From a virus, in the IMG/VR virus record IMGVR_UViG_3300015360_000089, positions 1-39,860 of that record: a stretch of DNA of 39,860 nucleotides; one strand, 5' to 3'. How positions within the stretch are numbered: position 1 is the first letter of the stretch; each line of letters begins with the position of its first letter. Positions 1,569-31,235 of the stretch are shown piece after piece. The notes under the pieces are model-generated. The model was given only the letters and a program-made list of their open reading frames with translations, did not search any database and was not told the DNA's origin. The position numbers and the translations under genes are program-made.

Positions 1569-3425
1569 TTACCCCGAGAAGGTCGTGTTGCCGGACCTTT
1601 TATCCGGGCGATGGACCCGTGACCGGCGCTTCAGCTTAGAGGGGTTCACGCTGTTGAGCCAGATGTCCACTTCGTAGATTCCCGTTTCACCCTTAGCGAT
1701 GAACTCTAGGGGATCGGCAAAGCTCATGGTCACGTCTTGGCGGGTGATCTGCTTCAACCGCTGGGGGAGACAGTTGTCGGCGCCGCATCGGTTCTTGGCA
1801 ATCTCGCAGGCGAAGATGGAGGCCGCCATGCGCCCTTCTAGGGGGACCGGCTTGCCATAGTCATAGGTGATGGTCCAGGTCCCTGGATCCCCCGGCTCAC
1901 CCGTAAGGTCATTGGTACATGGCCAGCCCTGGCCATCGACGCGGCATACGCGGCGGTAGGCCTCAATCTTGTAGGCAGTGGCAGGAAGAAGGACTCCATC
2001 AACCCAGATGGCCACGATGTCATTGACGGTGGCAGGGAGATCGATACAGGGGAGGTGGCACTTCTTAGAGCATCGACCGATGTTGACGAACCCGGTCCCG
2101 AAGCCGTTGGCCACGGGGTAGGCCGGGTAGTTGTTGAAGGCCCACCACCAATCTGAGCCCACGAGGGAATCCCACAGGCCAGAGCAGCACCCACAGTTGT
2201 CCCCGCGACAGTTGTGAACGGCGAACCCGTTGGCCAAGAAGGAATGGTCTTCTTCGACCTCGATATCATAGACGGGGACAGAAAGCCCCGACGCTTCCAT
2301 CTTCTTGACGCGTGACCAGACGTGTTCATTGTCGGTCCACGTGTACTTGGTCTCTCCTTCAAACCATCCAACCGTGAATGACGGCTTGACGCTTACGGAG
2401 CGGCCCTGGATTTCACCCTTAGGCGCCTTGCATCTCGACAAGGTAGATGAGAAGCCAAGACTTGTCACGAGAACCCTGAGGCTAATCGCCATTCGTTCAC
2501 TGACTGTAGAGATTCTGGATTCGACACGCTTGCCTTGATATCGTTCACAACCATCAGCGGAAAGATAGCCAGCGAGGAAGGAACGACGCACATCTTCTGG
2601 CGCCCCAAACATCCACCCAGGGATGTCCTTCTCGGACGCTCCTGAACCAAAGTTCAACGTCAGCCACTCTCGTAGTGGTCCGTCCTGGGTATGGAATCGA
2701 ACGGTAGTCTTCTGCTCGCGCTCCTTCCATCTCATGTCTGTTGTAGCAAGGGCCGAGGCCAGTTCATCTCGTTCGTGCTTTCCACAACGGATGAAGACAG
2801 AGTTGGCGTTGTGGTTTGGGTTATCAAGGTCTCCCTGAACCCAGCCATCGCCAAGCCAGCGACCCACCATCCACCAGAAAGACTGGTCGTCTGGGTCCGT
2901 CCCCAAAGGTACTCGCAGTTCGGCTGTTTCAATGGAGCGAGGGGTGGCCCAGGCGTTTCCGACCATAGACCTGGCCTCAGCCCATTCTGGCTGGCCTAGC
3001 TTTACCTCGCGCTCTGACCAATTGAACGGCTTGATCTCACGTGACCAGAACCTATGGTCGGCAGTCGAGCTAACTGAGCCACCTTGACCCGACAGCTTGA
3101 ACGTCTCCTCAATACCCGTTTGGCCAGATCGTGTGACCTTACGCCAACGCCCGCGATGAGTTAGAACTACGTCTCCTGGTTCGATATCTTCGATTGGCCG
3201 CTGGCCGCCGATTGTCGTGACCATTGTTCCTGCTGGGAAGCATGGCCAAATGGTCCGCTCACACTCACCGGGGAATTGACGGCCAGAGAGGCGATAGAGG
3301 ATGGCTGAAGCAAACTGAATGGCCACGGTCAGGTCATAGGCTGGATCCAGGCCGTTACAGCAGAGACGAACCTCCTCGGGGGTCGTCCAGGGCTCGCAAG
3401 GGATTTCGACGGGGGGAGCAGCCAT
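1569..3425 (-). CDS. Head-to-tail adaptor interrupted by an intein
   Basis: The 618-residue precursor consists of a 61-residue N-extein, a 344-residue intein (62-405) and a 213-residue C-extein. The joined exteins read ...ERTIWP|CRGDNCGCC..., resembling the actinophage head-to-tail adaptor pattern in which an RLxGRQF helix is followed by a conserved PCR segment. The mature protein (about 274 residues) would cap the portal and join head to tail. It is rich in cysteine. It lies downstream of the tail-tube and HNH genes and upstream of the connector gene. The Shine-Dalgarno signal before the ATG is weak. Confidence 0.8.
   Translation of the reverse strand: MAAPPVEIPCEPWTTPEEVRLCCNGLDPAYDLTVAIQFASAILYRLSGRQFPGECERTIWPCFPAGTMVTTIGGQRPIEDIEPGDVVLTHRGRWRKVTRSGQTGIEETFKLSGQGGSVSSTADHRFWSREIKPFNWSEREVKLGQPEWAEARSMVGNAWATPRSIETAELRVPLGTDPDDQSFWWMVGRWLGDGWVQGDLDNPNHNANSVFIRCGKHERDELASALATTDMRWKEREQKTTVRFHTQDGPLREWLTLNFGSGASEKDIPGWMFGAPEDVRRSFLAGYLSADGCERYQGKRVESRISTVSERMAISLRVLVTSLGFSSTLSRCKAPKGEIQGRSVSVKPSFTVGWFEGETKYTWTDNEHVWSRVKKMEASGLSVPVYDIEVEEDHSFLANGFAVHNCRGDNCGCCSGLWDSLVGSDWWWAFNNYPAYPVANGFGTGFVNIGRCSKKCHLPCIDLPATVNDIVAIWVDGVLLPATAYKIEAYRRVCRVDGQGWPCTNDLTGEPGDPGTWTITYDYGKPVPLEGRMAASIFACEIAKNRCGADNCLPQRLKQITRQDVTMSFADPLEFIAKGETGIYEVDIWLNSVNPSKLKRRSRVHRPDKRSGNTTFSG
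2211..3242 (-). other. Intein with LAGLIDADG-type homing endonuclease (in head-tail adaptor)
   Basis: The intein begins at Cys62 with CFPAGTMV (block A) and has the block B pattern SSTADHRFW. It ends in YDIEVEEDHSFLANGF then AVHN (blocks F and G), followed by Cys+1 of the extein. Between these lie two endonuclease motifs, VGRWLGDGW and FLAGYLSADG, in the positions of LAGLIDADG helices, so it is probably an active or recent homing element. Splicing would join WP to CRGD in a cysteine-rich, conserved part of the adaptor. Confidence 0.88.
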
Positions 3426-15539: not shown

Positions 15540-16625
15540 TCAGAGTTCTTCGCTCTGGTTGACGAAGGGCCGGGAGTATTCAGGCTTGACCTGCTGCCAC
15601 AGGGCATCTTCGATGGACTTACCATCAAGTAGCTTGAATAGGAACCCCGAGTTGGGGCTCCGCTTGGCTTGGTCGGCAAACTTCTTCCGGCTCTCCGTCC
15701 CCACGTCGGCCACGAGGCGCAGAAACTCCATACGGACCTCGTTTTCCAAAGCGTTGCGCTGGCGGATGAGTTCCACCTGAGTTGACTTCACCCAGGCGTA
15801 GAACTCGTCAGGCACGTTGTCGAGGATCTCCGTGAGGTTCCCCCGAGAGAGAGCCTCCCAGATGATCTTGGTGGAGCAGTTGGTGATGATGCGGTGCAGC
15901 CGGACGTAATCCGGGTGCTTGATCTTCACGCGGAAGCTCACTTCACCCGGCCGGTACCAAACGGCAACGACGCCTTCATCGGTGGCCTTGTCGTTGCCCG
16001 TGGCGAAGCGATGAGCCTCATCGATGTTGTTGATGCCGTGGTGAACATCCACCTTGAGGCCGGGCCACCAATCGATCATCCACACGGGGATATCGGCACC
16101 CGAATCGATCTCGATGGCAGCGATCAACACCAGCCCTTCCAGGCCGTTGTAGTCCACCACGATCCGGTTGGATGGGTAGATGATCTCCGTCAAGACCGTC
16201 ACGCCTTCGGGCGGAACGAAGTCTGGATGGTTCTCTTGGAGCCACTTGGTGGCCCAGATGGCCTGATCCGAAGCGAAGGATCCACGAGTTGCTACCCGCA
16301 CTTCACCTTGGTGAACGTAGATGATCCCGAGAGATCCATCAAGTTTGTCCGTGATCACCGGAGGGGATCCCAGGGCATGGTTAGGCAGACGGACATCCCC
16401 GTAGTTCTGGAACTTGGGGAAGGGCCGAGCCACGATGGTGTTGTCGGCGGCGACGATCAGGCCCCTGGAATTGGAGGTGGCCTCATTCCACACGCGATCG
16501 AACTGAGCGACGGCCGAGTAGTTGTAGATCACGAGATCCCACTCCGGGTGCAACGTCGCATTGACGTGCTTGTTCTCGATGGCGTCCTGGAGGACTTCTG
16601 CGGGGATGAGATCGTGGAGTTTCAT
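15540..16625 (-). CDS. RNA ligase, T4 Rnl1-like
   Basis: The 361-residue enzyme carries the ATP-dependent RNA ligase motifs in order: KLDGS (motif I, adenylated Lys94), SRGLIV upstream of it, TEIIYPSNRIVVDY (motif IIIa), EGVVAVWY (motif IV) and FRVKIKHPDY (motif V). Rnl1-type ligases join 3'-OH and 5'-phosphate RNA ends, classically to repair anticodon loops cut by host nucleases. ATG 16625 is leaderless, 7 bases after the promoter -10, so the longer N-terminal frame is rejected. It neighbours pnkp, its natural partner. Confidence 0.93.
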   Translation of the reverse strand: MKLHDLIPAEVLQDAIENKHVNATLHPEWDLVIYNYSAVAQFDRVWNEATSNSRGLIVAADNTIVARPFPKFQNYGDVRLPNHALGSPPVITDKLDGSLGIIYVHQGEVRVATRGSFASDQAIWATKWLQENHPDFVPPEGVTVLTEIIYPSNRIVVDYNGLEGLVLIAAIEIDSGADIPVWMIDWWPGLKVDVHHGINNIDEAHRFATGNDKATDEGVVAVWYRPGEVSFRVKIKHPDYVRLHRIITNCSTKIIWEALSRGNLTEILDNVPDEFYAWVKSTQVELIRQRNALENEVRMEFLRLVADVGTESRKKFADQAKRSPNSGFLFKLLDGKSIEDALWQQVKPEYSRPFVNQSEEL

Positions 16626-16632
16626 ACTCGGC

Positions 16633-16655
16633 ACAATAACATCCAGGAGTGACGC
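16633..16655 (-). promoter_or_regulatory. GCGTCA-N11-TATTGT promoter, leaderless, for RNA ligase 1
   Basis: TATTGT ends 7 bases before ATG 16625. Confidence 0.8.
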
Positions 16656-16656
16656 T

Positions 16657-17715
16657 CTAGCGGTCGTTCTTGAGTAGGTACCTCGAACTGACGGCCTTCC
16701 AGGAGGCACGCAAGAATCGCCCGTCGTCGGTCTGGACATGTGATTCCTCGCAGCGCCATACAGCGCCTTCGGCCGCCCGATCAGGGGACACCGAGGACTT
16801 GAGGGTCTCGACCTGGGCCAAAGCCTCCTCCACTGTGGACGGGTAGGAGAGATCTAGGGTTGGAACCGAGATTTCCTGAAGCCATACGGGCCACTTGGGA
16901 CGGGGGACTGTCAACCCGTCAACCATGAGGTTGAAGGCGGCGAATCGCTGACCCTTGATCTTCAGGGGATTGCCCTGGATCACCTCTCCAAAGGATTCGC
17001 CCTGGAGTACGATTCGGGAACCCATCACCTCGTGGTCGAGGCAATAGATCAAGAAGGTCTCAATCTCCAGGTCGCGGCCGAGCCGCCACAGGGTATTGCC
17101 CTCCTCCTCAAGCAGGTCAAGGTTTCGAGAGCACACATGGAACCCTCCCTCCTCGCCGTCGTAGCCGAAGGAAGTGCTGGAGCCATCGATCTTCTCGGTG
17201 GCGATCCAGGCGAGATGACTGAAGCTGAGAAGGGCCTCGATGTTCTGGATGCGCTCCTCGTCAGTCTTGGGGATCCAGCCGGGGCGCATACCACGAACCG
17301 ATCCAGCAAGAGAAGCAGGAACCGGAGGTTCCCACTTGATCACACCGAGCAGATCGGTAACATCCTGACCATCACTCCAATGGTTGCCATGTCCCTGGAG
17401 TTCGGGGAATTCCCCCAAAGGCAGGGCAAGGCCCTGAGAGTATTGCCCGCGAAGGCGAGCAGTCTTGAGGACGTGGCCCTTGTGGCCTTCGGCATCGGTC
17501 CTGACCCCTCGGGGTTCCAAGAAGGCGAACCGTGAATCGGTGACATCGAGCAGTGAGTCCACTTCGAAATAGACGACCGGATCGCCTACAGCGAACTCTC
17601 CTTTCTTTACCACGACATCCCAACCCCTGATCCTCGCCCGCTCGATCGAATCAGCATCAGGGATGGGGGCTAGGTCAGCAATGGCCTCGATAGTGGCGAG
17701 TCTGCGATCGGTCAT
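16657..17715 (-). CDS. RNA ligase, Rnl5/DraRnl-like
   Basis: This 352-residue enzyme has an N-terminal OB-like domain (about 1-130) and a nucleotidyltransferase domain with EKIDGSS (motif I, Lys175), FHVCSRNLDL, LQGESFGE (motif III), EGAVWR (motif IV) and SWKAVSSRYLLK (motif V). An N-terminal OB-type domain before the ligase core is the hallmark of the Deinococcus DraRnl (Rnl5) group, which seals nicks in RNA-DNA hybrids or RNA duplexes with a 3'-OH RNA end. It differs from the neighbouring Rnl1-type enzyme, so the phage has two sealing activities. ATG 17715 is leaderless. Confidence 0.9.
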   Translation of the reverse strand: MTDRRLATIEAIADLAPIPDADSIERARIRGWDVVVKKGEFAVGDPVVYFEVDSLLDVTDSRFAFLEPRGVRTDAEGHKGHVLKTARLRGQYSQGLALPLGEFPELQGHGNHWSDGQDVTDLLGVIKWEPPVPASLAGSVRGMRPGWIPKTDEERIQNIEALLSFSHLAWIATEKIDGSSTSFGYDGEEGGFHVCSRNLDLLEEEGNTLWRLGRDLEIETFLIYCLDHEVMGSRIVLQGESFGEVIQGNPLKIKGQRFAAFNLMVDGLTVPRPKWPVWLQEISVPTLDLSYPSTVEEALAQVETLKSSVSPDRAAEGAVWRCEESHVQTDDGRFLRASWKAVSSRYLLKNDR

Positions 17716-19272: not shown

Positions 19273-19426
19273 CTACCCCTCATGGGGAAGGAAGTGGCCC
19301 TGGTCACCTAACCAATCATGCGTCGGCCCGGTAGATCGGGGGCCTGCTGTTGGAAACCGTCCGCAAGGTACCTTGCCTCGGTGAAAGGCGACAGGAGAAG
19401 GGGGTAGAACCCTTCCGGCGCTCCAA
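19273..19426 (+). ncRNA. Unassigned structured RNA leader
   Basis: About 150 bases lie between the plus-strand promoter and the first tRNA. They hold several hairpins: GGCCCGGTAGATCGGGGGCC, GCAAGG/CCTTGC, and GAAGGG/CCCTTC. I could not match a known RNA family and see no ORF beyond 9 codons. Confidence 0.35.
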
Positions 19427-19498
19427 GCTCCACTAGCTCAACGGCAGATCAGCGCCCTCTAAAAGCGTTAGTTGGGGGTTCAAGTCCCCCGTGGAGCT
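19427..19498 (+). tRNA. tRNA with CUA anticodon (amber suppressor-like)
   Basis: Acceptor GCTCCAC/GTGGAGC, D-stem GCTC/GATC (one mismatch), anticodon stem GCGCC/AGCGT (C-A mismatch next to the loop), loop CTCTAAA with anticodon CTA, T-arm GGGGG-TTCAAGT-CCCCC. A CUA anticodon would read UAG. The stem flaws leave room for doubt. Confidence 0.7.
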
Positions 19499-19502
19499 CC
19501 CT

Positions 19503-21138: not shown

Positions 21139-21143
21139 TTGAG

Positions 21144-21217
21144 TCCTCCGGGCGGGATTCGAACCCGCACTAACCGCCATCTCATGACAGCGCCTCTGCC
21201 AATTGGGCTACCGGAGG
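21144..21217 (-). tRNA. tRNA-Leu(GAG), short variable loop
   Basis: Acceptor CCTCCGG/CCGGAGG, anticodon stem CTGTC/GGCGG with wobbles, loop ATGAGAT (GAG), 5-base variable loop, T-arm GCGGG-TTCGAAT-CCCGC, A73. Confidence 0.85.
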
Positions 21218-24182: not shown

Positions 24183-24642
24183 TGCCACCAGGCCCCTGGG
24201 AGACGATCCCTGCATCGTGCTACATGTGTGCAACGACTTTGGCGCATGGGGACGCGGTTTTGTTCTGGCCATCTCTGGCCGCTGGCCTCAACCAGAACAG
24301 GAATATCGGAGGTGGGTGAAGGACCGGGCGTATGCAGATCCGCACACACCCTTCGAGCTTGGCCAGATCCAGATGGTCCTCGTGGACAACGACTTCTGGG
24401 TGGCCAACATGGTCGCCCAGCATGGGATCGGTCGGCATCGAGGGCGTCCGCCCATTCGTTACGACGCCGTTCAGGAATGCCTCCGGCAGGTAGCCCTGGA
24501 GGCCGTCGCCCTGGGTGCCTCCATCCACATGCCCCGGATCGGCTGTGGGCTCGCCGGGGGCCAATGGGGAGTGATTGAGCCCATCATCGAGGAGCAGTTG
24601 ATTGAGAAGGGCCTCTCGGTGACGGTCTACGACCTGCCCTAG
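24157..24642 (+). CDS. Macrodomain protein (ADP-ribose 1''-phosphatase / deacylase type)
   Basis: From ATG 24157 (GAGGAGG four bases upstream) the 161-residue protein is one macrodomain of the Poa1p/ALC1-like kind. It shows [20 protein letters not shown] (ligand loop 1), [31 protein letters not shown], and [13 protein letters not shown] (loop 2). Such enzymes bind ADP-ribose and remove 1''-phosphate or acyl groups. In tRNA splicing of the 2'-phosphotransferase type, ADP-ribose 1'',2''-cyclic phosphate is a by-product, which would fit the RNA-repair genes here; counteracting host ADP-ribosylation defence is the alternative. Its TAG overlaps the recA TAG on the other strand at CTAG. Confidence 0.88.
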
Positions 24643-26489
24643 TCGGGCAGCACGCCGCCGTTCATGGCGACCCTGGTGAGCCGATCCACTTCGTCCATCA
24701 CGTCGGGATTGTCAGCGAGGTACTGCTTGGTGTTCTCGCGGCCCTGACCAATGTTCGAGCCATCATAGGAATACCAAGCCCCCTTCTTTTCGATGATCCC
24801 GTAGATCTCTGCCACGTCGAGAGTGCAACCCTCTTGGCTGATGCCGGTGCCGTACATGATGTCAAACTCGGCCTTCTTGAAAGGAGCCCCCACCTTGTTC
24901 TTGACCACCTTGACTTCGGTCTTGTTCCCCTCAACGTCAGTCCCGTCCTTGATCTGGTCGCGGCGACGAACATCGAGGCGCACCGACGAATAGAACTTGA
25001 GGGCACGGCCACCGGGGGTGGTTTCGGGGGACCCATATATGACCCCGATTTTTTCCCGGATCTGATTGATGAAGATGACCAGGGTCCCGGCCCGCTTCAT
25101 GTTGCCGGTCAGCTTTCGCATGGCCTGGCTCATCAGGCGGGCCTGAAGGCCGACGTGGGAATCACCCATGTCTCCTTCGATCTCGGCCCGAGGGACCAAG
25201 GCGGCCACGGAGTCCACAACGATGACGGCCATCTCGTTGGATCGGCAGAGCATGTCCACGATTTCCAGAGCTTCCTCGCCGTTGTTGGGCTGGCTGATGA
25301 GGAGTTCGTTGAGGTCCACCCCGATCGCCGCCGCATAGACGGGATCAAGAGCGTGCTCGGCGTCCACGATGGCGCAGATGCCACCCTTCTTCTGGGCCTC
25401 GGCAATGACATGCAGGGCCAAGGTTGTCTTGCCGCTATTATGGACGACGAACCCTTGGGCCACATAGTTGTTGTAGGGCGACTCCATTCGAAGATCGTAA
25501 GTGTCGCGCTCTCCGATCGCCATGATGTCGATGATCTCGGCCCCGACGACAGTGAACCTGAGATTGTTCGCATTCTCAAGGGGGTGAAGTCGTCCATGTT
25601 CCGTGGGGCTAATTACCACAAGGTTGTCGGGATCGTTGTTGTGGTAGTTCTCGTCTACGTGATGGACGTGACAAGAGGGGTCCAAGAATGAGAATCCGCT
25701 CAGGTCTCCCTCGGTGAATTTCTGTCGGTACTCGATGAGGGTCAGCCCATTGAGGGCCGCTTCTGCTACGGCGCGAGAAAGTTGAAGGCGTGAGTAGGTG
25801 TACTCCACCGCGTCAGTCGTAACGCTCTTTTTGGGTGCGTGTGGGTGGATAGGAGCGACGTAGATATCGGGCCTCCAGCTCTTGCAATCCCTTTCCTCCC
25901 CTCCGTTCTGGAAATGCGTATTGTTGTGGATCATCAACTGATCCCCGATTTTCAGATCTGAGAGAGGTAGAAAGCGGCCATCGGTGAAGAACTTGTGTTC
26001 TGCCGTCGCTGTGATCTTCCCTTCCGTTGTGATAACAGTAAAACACGGCTTCGACCCGGTGTGTACCACATCAAGGATCTGATTCTGGAAAATGCGCCCC
26101 TCGTCGTTCATGCAAGGGGCAAAATAGACGGAGCCCTTAGTGCTCGGCCTCAGGTAGGCACCACTGCGGGGGCGTTCGATCTGGTGGAATCGGTGCCACA
26201 GGGAGGAGATCGAACCCCCCTTGTCGTCCTGACGCTTACCATCGGGCGTACGGACCTCGTAGTGGACGAAGGTGTCAGCATCAACACAAGACTCAGGGCC
26301 GAAAAGCTCGACGGCGCGCCCCCGAGGGAGGCCCCCGCAGCCGAGGGCCAGGTCAAGTGAAAGCGCCCCAGTGGAGATCACTTCCACGTCCATCCGAGGG
26401 GCCTCGTTGACCCGCATCACGGATCCTTCGCCGTAGGCCTTCTTGATTAACGCCAGAGCCTCGGTGAGGCCTTTGCCATGTTCGGTCAT
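24639..26489 (-). CDS. recA: RecA recombinase interrupted by an intein
   Basis: The 616-residue precursor holds a 284-residue intein (68-351). The joined exteins give a 332-residue RecA with a Walker A GPESSGKTT split by the intein, [12 protein letters not shown] (Walker B), [30 protein letters not shown] and [14 protein letters not shown] (DNA-binding loops). RecA pairs and exchanges DNA strands; in phages it supports recombination-dependent replication and repair. It is driven by its own GCGTCA-N11 promoter with a leader of about 20 bases and AGGGG before ATG. Confidence 0.95.
25437..26288 (-). other. Intein with HNH homing domain in the RecA Walker A motif
   Basis: Cys68 begins the intein ([12 protein letters not shown]), block B is TATAEHKFF (about 159-168), and the end is VAQGFVVHN before Ser+1 of SGKTT. 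The inserted nuclease is an HNH type, [20 protein letters not shown] (273-292), unlike the LAGLIDADG inteins in the other two genes. Insertion is inside the ATP-binding loop, so RecA is inactive until splicing. Confidence 0.92.
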
Positions 26490-26551: not shown

Positions 26552-27185
26552 TCAGAACTTTCCCTTACGGAAGTCCCCCAACCTCCAAGATCGCCCCGTG
26601 TTGTGATCCACCACTTCGTTGCGCTGGGTGTTGTGGGTGAAAGACTTGGCCGACCGCTCGGGGTTGATCTGGGTGCGCCGCTGGTCGTTGTGCTCCACTT
26701 CGGCCATCCCCTCCAGGTGCTCTGCTATCCGTTCGGATAACACCCGGCGCGCTTCTTGGCGATTCTGCCATTGCGAGCGTCCGTCGATCCTGGCTTCGAT
26801 GCCCGTGGGGATGTGTGTCAAAACGACACAGGAGTCCGTCTTGTTGCGATGTTGGCCACCTGGGCCTGAGCCTCGGGCGAAGCGCTCGGCCAAGTCTCCC
26901 TCGATGAGCACAAAGTCGCTTTCGTCTCGATCAAGAATAGCGACAGTAGCGGTAGAGGTGTGGCGGCGCTGAGCCCCTTGGGGAATGCGCTGGACGCGAT
27001 GGGTGCCCACGAAGGGCTCCAAGAAGGAGGCGTCCTCCACTTCCAAGACCATGGTGCGGGCGGAGTCATCGACGCTGGTCTTGATTCCACGTCGGCGCGC
27101 CGCGGCCTGGAACGCGTCAAAGGCAGTCCTGGGCAAACCTCAGGGCATCGGCCCCACCTTCACCGGGACGGATCTCTACTCTCAT
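26552..27185 (-). CDS. Short release factor needing a +1 frameshift at CUU UGA C
   Basis: ATG 27185 (AAGGAG six bases upstream) opens 22 codons beginning MRVEIRPGEGGADALRFA, the usual start of the RF1/RF2 core. They end at CTT TGA. The +1 frame continues at 27118 with DAFQAAARRRGIKTS and completes the protein: GTHRVQRIP, RRHTSTATVAIL and the catalytic GSGPGGQHRNKTDS. CTT-TGA-C is the exact shift site of bacterial prfB. The product (about 210 residues) lacks RF domain 1. Where RF1 has PxT and RF2 SPF it has a shorter PQGAQ loop, as in rescue-type factors such as PrfH. It lies downstream of tRNA group C. Confidence 0.88.
27116..27127 (-). promoter_or_regulatory. Programmed +1 frameshift site CTT TGA C
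   Basis: The shift codon CTT is 27122-27120, the in-frame stop TGA 27119-27117, and the next base is C. An AGGA sits four bases upstream of CTT, where prfB has its stimulatory Shine-Dalgarno-like element. Confidence 0.85.
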
Positions 27186-27206
27186 GAACTTCTCCTTCTT
27201 GGTTGG

Positions 27207-27278
27207 AGCCCCCGGCCGGATTCGAACCGACTTCTACCTGCTTACAAGACAGGGCATCACCTGCAATGCTTCAGGGGC
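27207..27278 (-). tRNA. tRNA-Thr(UGU)
   Basis: Acceptor GCCCCTG/CGGGGGC, D-stem GCAT/ATGC, anticodon stem CCTGT/GCAGG, loop CTTGTAA (TGT), T-arm GTCGG-TTCGAAT-CCGGC. Confidence 0.9.
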
Positions 27279-30434: not shown

Positions 30435-31205
30435 TCAGTTTCCGAACCTTTCGATGTGGTTGTCGTAGAACCAGTTGCGGAGGAACTCAGCCGGGGCGGC
30501 CTTCCAGACGAAGCGTTCCACCTCGATCGTCTGTTCCTCTTGCGTGCGCTTGTGGGTGAAGGTGACGGGACCTCTTTCCTGCACGGAGTGGATGAGGCGC
30601 CCATTGAGGAACCCCCGGTCCACCGACTCGGGATCGAAGCCTTGTGCGGTCAGGAGACCAGCCCGCTCGCGGGTGCCCAGGCCCATGATGACATTCTTGC
30701 CGATGTAGTGGTGGGCCAACATAGAGATGGCGTTGCGGCGACAATCGGTCTGCCTCCACCTCAAGTAGTCCGCCACGTCCCCAACGGTTTCCAGGGGGAA
30801 CACGCGTGCATCGAAGTGGGCTGGGCGAACAGGGAACTTGACGAAGCCCTCCTCGGCAGCGGCATTGAACACCTGAGTGGCGATGGCGGCGGAAACGGAG
30901 ACCACCTTCTGGACGACCCCACCAAACCAGGCCTCCGTGTTCTCATGGATCAAATCGGTCGTGATGACCGAGATCTCGTCAGACTGCACGTAGGCACAGA
31001 GGGCGCCAGAGATGTTCTGACAAAGGGCCACGGCCGTGCCATTCATCACGCTGTTGAAGGTGGGATCGAAGGGCTTGCATAGTCCCCGAGTCCAGGTGTG
31101 GAAGGCCCTCCCGTCGACGCGGACCACCATGAATCCCTTGGCTGGGATCACGGCCTTCCATTTGGCCTCGATGGCCTTGAATCGGCCTCCTAGAGTATCT
31201 TGCAT
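30435..31205 (-). CDS. thg1: tRNA-His guanylyltransferase (Thg1-like)
   Basis: The 256-residue enzyme starts MQDTLGGRFKAIEAKW and contains the family signatures RVDGRAFHTWTR (metal-binding Asp31), YVQSDEISV (Asp76, Glu77) and HFDARVFPL. Thg1-like proteins add nucleotides in the 3'-5' direction: G-1 onto tRNA-His, or missing 5' bases onto truncated tRNAs. The phage tRNA-His has C73 but no encoded G-1, giving a direct substrate. ATG 31205 is leaderless, 7 bases after the -10, so the 7-residue extension is rejected. It is first in an operon with RlaP. Confidence 0.93.
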   Translation of the reverse strand: MQDTLGGRFKAIEAKWKAVIPAKGFMVVRVDGRAFHTWTRGLCKPFDPTFNSVMNGTAVALCQNISGALCAYVQSDEISVITTDLIHENTEAWFGGVVQKVVSVSAAIATQVFNAAAEEGFVKFPVRPAHFDARVFPLETVGDVADYLRWRQTDCRRNAISMLAHHYIGKNVIMGLGTRERAGLLTAQGFDPESVDRGFLNGRLIHSVQERGPVTFTHKRTQEEQTIEVERFVWKAAPAEFLRNWFYDNHIERFGN

Positions 31206-31212
31206 GGGGGTG

Positions 31213-31235
31213 ACGGTACCAGCCACCCATGACGA
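31213..31235 (-). promoter_or_regulatory. TCGTCA-N11-TACCGT promoter, leaderless, for thg1
   Basis: TACCGT ends 7 bases before ATG 31205. The first base of the hexamer differs from GCGTCA. Confidence 0.75.

Follow-up and report, generated by a model that had tools for sequence, protein, structure and literature searches.

We report a release-factor gene from a tailed phage that very probably encodes an RF1-like factor consisting of domains 2-4, gated by prfB-type programmed +1 frameshifting and produced chiefly when release, mostly that at UGA, is slow. The gene lies on the minus strand, at 27185-26552, of IMG/VR record IMGVR_UViG_3300015360_000089, positions 1 to 39,860. This whole stretch of 39,860 nucleotides (nt) is called the window below. 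The programmed recoding of bacterial-type release factors has been held to be confined to RF2, with no RF1 counterpart known (PMC5009743, PMC12421855). An earlier reading of the letters alone, the original prediction, gave no strand and proposed a prfB-type frameshift at this gene. That proposal is now borne out by relatives, in which the slip codon is invariant (50 of 50 frameshift genes) and a Shine-Dalgarno (SD)-like motif is found in 45 of 50.

The complete frameshifted gene (26552..27185) is built as follows, all elements being on the minus strand. A strong ribosome binding site read in the sequence, AAGGAG (27192..27197), precedes the ATG (27185-27183) by 6 nt. The leader open reading frame (ORF), MRVEIRPGEGGADALRFAQDCL, then runs in frame 0 for 22 codons, from this ATG to a TGA (27117..27185). 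The last codon before the stop is the slip codon CTT (27120..27122), on which the P-site tRNA-Leu would move from CUU to UUU. The internal TGA itself (27117..27119) is followed by C, a weak termination context, and the SD-like stimulator AGGA (27127..27130) stands 4 nt upstream of CTT, as had been proposed. When one base is skipped at CTTT, the leader is joined to a +1-frame ORF (26552..27118, with its stop TGA at 26554-26552) and a single protein of 210 amino acids (aa) results, 22 codons from the leader and 188 from the +1 frame. The Pfam domain PCRF matches residues 3-81 of this product, spanning the junction at residue 22, and RF-1 matches residues 91-194. The start frame thus does encode a release-factor-like N-terminus that stops at CTT TGA. 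The +1 frame carries the fold on through the remainder of PCRF, including a loop that replaces PxT, to the GGQ (residues 109-111, invariant in the family alignment) and the end of the RF-1 domain.

Recoding signals across the family

Homology searches with conserved protein stretches only, which are blind to the recoding device, found hundreds of relatives in IMG/VR. A classification script that finds the domain-2 motif and the GGQ, and then tests how the frames connect, was applied to 170 distinct genes, mostly viral. Fifty were classed as +1 frameshift genes, 118 as carrying an in-frame stop and 2 as uninterrupted, which makes the in-frame stop the commoner device. These gene counts, and the statistics for the base after the stop given below, are not phylogenetically independent. 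The same test on 80 chromosomal loci returned 73 uninterrupted RF1 genes, 6 loci without a call and 1 frameshift, so that the bacterial RF1 genes were uninterrupted in 73 of 73. The single frameshift (L146, one of the 170) is a phage-type gene in a Hydrogenophilales metagenome-assembled genome, which encodes an ordinary RF1 separately. It lies on a 25-kb contig that we read as a phage contig or a prophage. Seven additional genes were read by eye: an in-frame TGA was seen in L193, L196 and L197, and L195, L300, L347 and L072/L073 were uninterrupted. A Gottesmanbacteria contig (L157) carries an uninterrupted RF1-like gene in which just 13 codons precede the PCRF motif, so that domain 1 seems to be missing here too.

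In all 50 frameshift genes CTT immediately precedes the stop, compared with 3 of 250 ordinary TGA stops from the same loci. The stop is usually TGA (42 genes), sometimes TAG (7) and once TAA. In 41 of the 50, GGAGG, GGAG, GAGG or GGGGG ends exactly 3 nt before CTT. The SD-like motif counted above lies within 10 nt of CTT, and it occurs at 15% of control positions. The base after the stop (+4) differs between the two devices, being C after 27 of 42 frameshift UGAs (p 2e-6) and A after 81 of 119 readthrough UGAs (p 1e-10). It is never T at recoding UGAs, and at the ordinary UGA stops of these loci it shows no bias. An A that follows UGA favours natural readthrough in E. coli.

The 118 in-frame-stop genes hold 119 TGA and 2 TAG codons, mostly at the conserved Trp codon of RF1 (L036-L040, L044, L047, L049 and about 110 further loci). 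In phages that use the standard code, these genes appear from their sequences to undergo programmed readthrough. Three genes (L053, L104 and L198) have two in-frame TGA codons each, with both places common to the three (alignment columns 47 and 61). The release-factor gene of the 735-kb phage LR756501 (L197) also has two.

The frameshift signal closely resembles that of bacterial prfB, the RF2 gene, which shares the CTT slip codon, the UGA C stop, an SD-like element 3 nt upstream and a full-length factor that is made only after a +1 shift. It differs in that the phage product is nearest to RF1 and not RF2, and lacks domain 1. The phage slip lies inside domain 2, at four sites in the family, whereas that of prfB lies before domain 1. 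Furthermore, the phage stop may be TAG or TAA, whereas TAG was never found among 8,164 prfB motifs (PMC12421855). In the same survey, which covered >12,000 bacterial genomes, the motif turned up in prfB, and prfA yielded no convincing case of programmed frameshifting (PMC12421855); every CUU-stop frameshift in RECODE belongs to prfB (PMC10885494).

One-base frame breaks and in-frame TGA codons are the usual marks of broken genes and of recoded genomes alike, and some code-4 phages have been reported with an RF1 gene (PMC10746230). We nevertheless give next to no credence to a pseudogene, a sequencing or assembly error, or phages that read UGA or UAG as sense (code 4/15). CTT TGA C occurs at the identical codon in four close relatives of the window gene (L002, L003, L035 and L043), where GGAG stands 3 nt upstream; this is the conservation that the original prediction proposed to look for. 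Between the window and these four, base differences in the 22-codon leader fall on codon positions 1, 2 and 3 in the ratio 28/12/94, and the leader codons are therefore under protein-level selection. The conserved CTTTGAC and the excess of third-position differences together exclude a sequencing error and a pseudogene, and they contradict the loss of a base at 27119 for which the original prediction had allowed. It had also allowed for a single open frame in related phages, which is seen in just 2 of 170 genes. CTT and a stop recur in frameshift genes from many metagenomes, and published huge-phage genomes also have an interrupted release-factor gene, by a frameshift in LR745208 and by an in-frame TGA in LR745206, LR756501, LR756502 and LR756504.

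A reassigned UGA gives no account of +1 shifts. Internal stops were looked for in the helicase, DNA polymerase and terminase genes of the same phage records and none were found. In 20-kb samples from ten phages, ORFs in the standard code are dense and reach 400-2800 aa in most samples, with TGG as Trp and TGA as an ordinary stop. An alternative code is therefore rejected for the sampled phages, and the internal stop is special to the release-factor gene, which is the only gene with an RF-1 domain in each sampled phage record.

The interruption might instead separate a 22-aa peptide from a second product, a C-terminal protein that is started internally in the +1 frame. The window does have a candidate start, a TTG at 27136, five codons before the slip. 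However, among the 50 frameshift genes any possible start is present in that stretch in 32 and an ATG in 11, with no fixed place, and we rejected an internal start in the absence of a conserved start codon. Without the leader, the PCRF domain would lose its first strand and the GGxDA tip, both of which are conserved in frame 0 of the aligned genes. An internal start also leaves the CTT, the SD spacing and the +4 base unexplained. Two separate products are thus very improbable, and a single frameshifted protein is, judged by these signals, near certain.

Kinship of the product and place of the interruption

The nearest relative of the factor is RF1. In NCBIfam the window product scores 131 bits for prfA, 84 for prfB and 61 for prfH, all far under the cut-offs. 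For prfA the scores are 131 bits against a cut-off of 400 and 121 against 423, and for release_prfH 60.8 against 166.65. Comparison with the PDB, by sequence and by fold, puts RF1 at the top and PrfH near the bottom. We folded the 188 aa of the window product that come from the +1 frame, and also a readthrough relative at full length (L049, with its TGA read as Trp), and for both of these predicted structures the best PDB match by fold is RF1 (TM 0.78 and 0.9, respectively). The SPF motif of RF2 is absent from the product, whose nearest family by sequence is RF1. Bacterial RF1 (prfA) and mitochondrial mtRF1a are thus nearest in sequence, profile and fold, sharing PCRF and RF-1 domains with the GGQ. 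The phage factor differs from them in its interrupted gene, its separate clade and the absence of domain 1, since only 2 residues precede the PCRF match in the window product. This absence had been noted in the original prediction.

Most members retain the parts with which RF1 reads stop codons. Nearly every readthrough gene and most of the frameshift genes have equivalents of Gln181, Pro184, Thr186, His193 and Thr194. The window gene belongs to a subgroup of five (with L002, L003, L035 and L043) in which the PxT loop is two residues shorter and the Thr186 equivalent is lost. The window loop reads PQG where RF1, like most of the relatives, has PxT, and the shortened PQGAQ loop of the original prediction is therefore real.

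Could this subgroup be a rescue factor akin to PrfH that acts on damaged or stalled ribosomes and is gated by slow termination at UGA? Like PrfH (RFH), the window product has the GGQ, lacks domain 1 and has an altered codon-reading loop, and its subgroup sits on a long branch of the tree. That said, the match to PrfH is far weaker than that to RF1, and the subgroup retains the Gln181, His193 and Thr194 equivalents. The genomic context differs as well: recA adjoins the window gene, no RtcB gene is seen beside it, and a search directly upstream found tRNA genes and no rtcB. No recoding of PrfH is reported in the literature covered. We consider a PrfH-like rescue role doubtful. Membership of PrfH itself is rejected, and the kinship suggested by the original prediction is not supported, because RF1 is nearest by sequence, profile and fold, the prfH score is far under its cut-off and the complete RF1 codon-reading set is present in most relatives.

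The two devices share a preferred position. A single alignment column holds the readthrough UGA of 105 genes and the CTT slip of 42, and bacterial RF1 has Trp in this column in 56 of 73 genes. Going by the codons, a single change from TGG to TGA would be enough to create the readthrough device. In-frame stops also occur in column 51 (TGA or TAG) and jointly in columns 47 and 61 in the three genes mentioned above. The frameshift sites of the family are columns 26, 38, 58 and 72, with column 26 belonging to the window's subgroup. In a quick tree of a thinned set (50 frameshift, 40 readthrough and 2 uninterrupted genes), the phage proteins form a clade apart from bacterial RF1 (SH-aLRT 99). The interrupted genes form a single group (support 96), with the uninterrupted L055 and L301 outside it. 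The type of device changes at least 4 times on this tree, and place and type together about 10 times.

What the stop codon may sense

In the mechanism that we propose, a ribosome would translate the 22 leader codons and then pause, its A site occupied by UGA C and its P site by tRNA-Leu on CUU. Fast termination at UGA would release the 22-aa peptide. If termination is slow, pairing of AGGA with the 16S rRNA and the slippery CUU U would shift the P-site tRNA to UUU, after which the remaining 188 codons would be translated into an active GGQ factor. In the readthrough genes, by analogy with prfB, slow termination would give time for Trp-tRNA to act at the UGA. A factor produced in this way when release is limiting may take over or supplement termination or rescue. 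The interruption, the slip site, the SD element, the +4 context, the conservation and the fold can all be read from the DNA; from these we infer that recoding takes place in vivo, that it rises under slow termination and that the factor acts on the ribosome. Nearly all of the roughly 170 related genes carry a frameshift or an in-frame stop, and the protein is therefore probably made mainly while normal termination is slow. The analogy with prfB makes a role as a sensor of slow termination likely.

Since UGA is the usual sensor and the product is of the RF1 type, the UGA-gated genes are probably cross-regulated, sensing RF2. The genes gated by UAG or UAA could be under true feedback.

Several observations weigh against this mechanism. 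The SD match in the window (AGGA, 4 nt from the slip) is weaker than in most relatives, 5 of the 50 frameshift genes have no SD-like motif, and a few uninterrupted members exist (L055, L301, L300, L347, L072/L073 and L195). Moreover, the reading head of most relatives is of the RF1 type (PxT, with UAA and UAG as predicted targets), and a UGA-gated factor would therefore not silence itself as RF2 does. Feedback in these genes would be cross-regulation, or absent.

The recoding site might also be a fixed limiter of dosage, which holds a release factor that may be toxic to a constant low ratio and senses nothing. Overexpression of RF2 is toxic, and that of RF1 less so (PMC12421855), and a constant low output is what one expects from weak +4 contexts and from both of these mechanistically different devices. 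However, a weak ribosome binding site would limit dosage equally well with no need of a stop codon. Stops are kept in >95% of the genes while the devices change place and type on the tree, as would be expected if the stop codon itself were needed. We therefore regard a fixed limiter as unlikely and favour a gate that responds to slow termination.

Genomic setting and significance

The window, 39.9 kb long, is a fragment of a tailed phage, with 38 predicted tRNA genes as well as genes for the major head protein, the portal and a head-tail adaptor. One of the tRNA genes called by ARAGORN, tRNA-Leu(GAG) (21143..21217, minus strand), is the expected reader of the CUU slip codon and may take part in slippage. 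A tRNA-Thr gene is called upstream of the release-factor gene (27204-27278). A further tRNA-like cloverleaf with a CUA (amber) anticodon (19426-19501, plus strand; ARAGORN call tRNA-Pyl, fold z-score -2.95) is encoded on the opposite strand from every other tRNA of the window, and it was not found in four sibling records. The RecA gene that adjoins the release-factor gene (24639-26489, minus strand) has an intein containing an HNH-type domain, and the head-tail adaptor gene (1569-3425, minus strand) has one containing a LAGLIDADG domain. Genes for a Ro60/TROVE-like protein, two RNA ligases and a Thg1-like tRNA guanylyltransferase (12102-13730, 15540-17715 and 30435-31226, all on the minus strand) we read as a set for RNA repair that accompanies the large tRNA array.

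Virus-encoded release factors that need recoding have a precedent. The class-I factor of Mimivirus and Megavirus (R726/mg280, an eRF1) combines UGA readthrough, probably as Trp, with a frameshift at a stop (PMC3521657). There, in eukaryotic viruses, a single gene undergoes both events and the factor is of the eRF1 type, whereas the phage genes encode a bacterial-type RF1, mostly with one event per gene and with prfB-like CTT and SD signals. RF1 and RF2 genes have been reported from huge phages in an account that does not mention frameshifting (PMC7162821). A 2016 review called early in-frame UGA codons in RF2 genes and their UAG counterpart in RF1 genes unknown, and cited a single viral case, the eRF1 of Mimivirus (PMC5009743). 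In the open-access literature, to which our search was confined, we found no report of a phage release factor with programmed frameshifting or readthrough.

The device in the window is real, conserved and widespread. A broader proposal, to which we give an even chance, is that standard-code phages as a rule place an RF1-like factor under stop-codon control, alternating between CTT frameshifting and UGA or UAG readthrough at several sites. This would be a dedicated sensor of the termination capacity of the host, convergent with the eRF1 of Mimivirus. Both cases that the 2016 review called unknown, an RF1-type gene gated by UAG and a release-factor gene with an early in-frame UGA, would fall under it, and in the window's subgroup codon specificity would have changed as well. 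Gene callers would split or truncate such genes, and phage release factors are therefore probably undercounted in annotated genomes.

What this means for phage biology is that a family of RF1-like factors carries recoding signals almost universally, in two forms that include natural UAG and UAA frameshift signals. It can now be tested why a release factor stays under stop-codon control in viruses, whether phages sense or attack host termination, and how the frameshift signal works at stops other than UGA.
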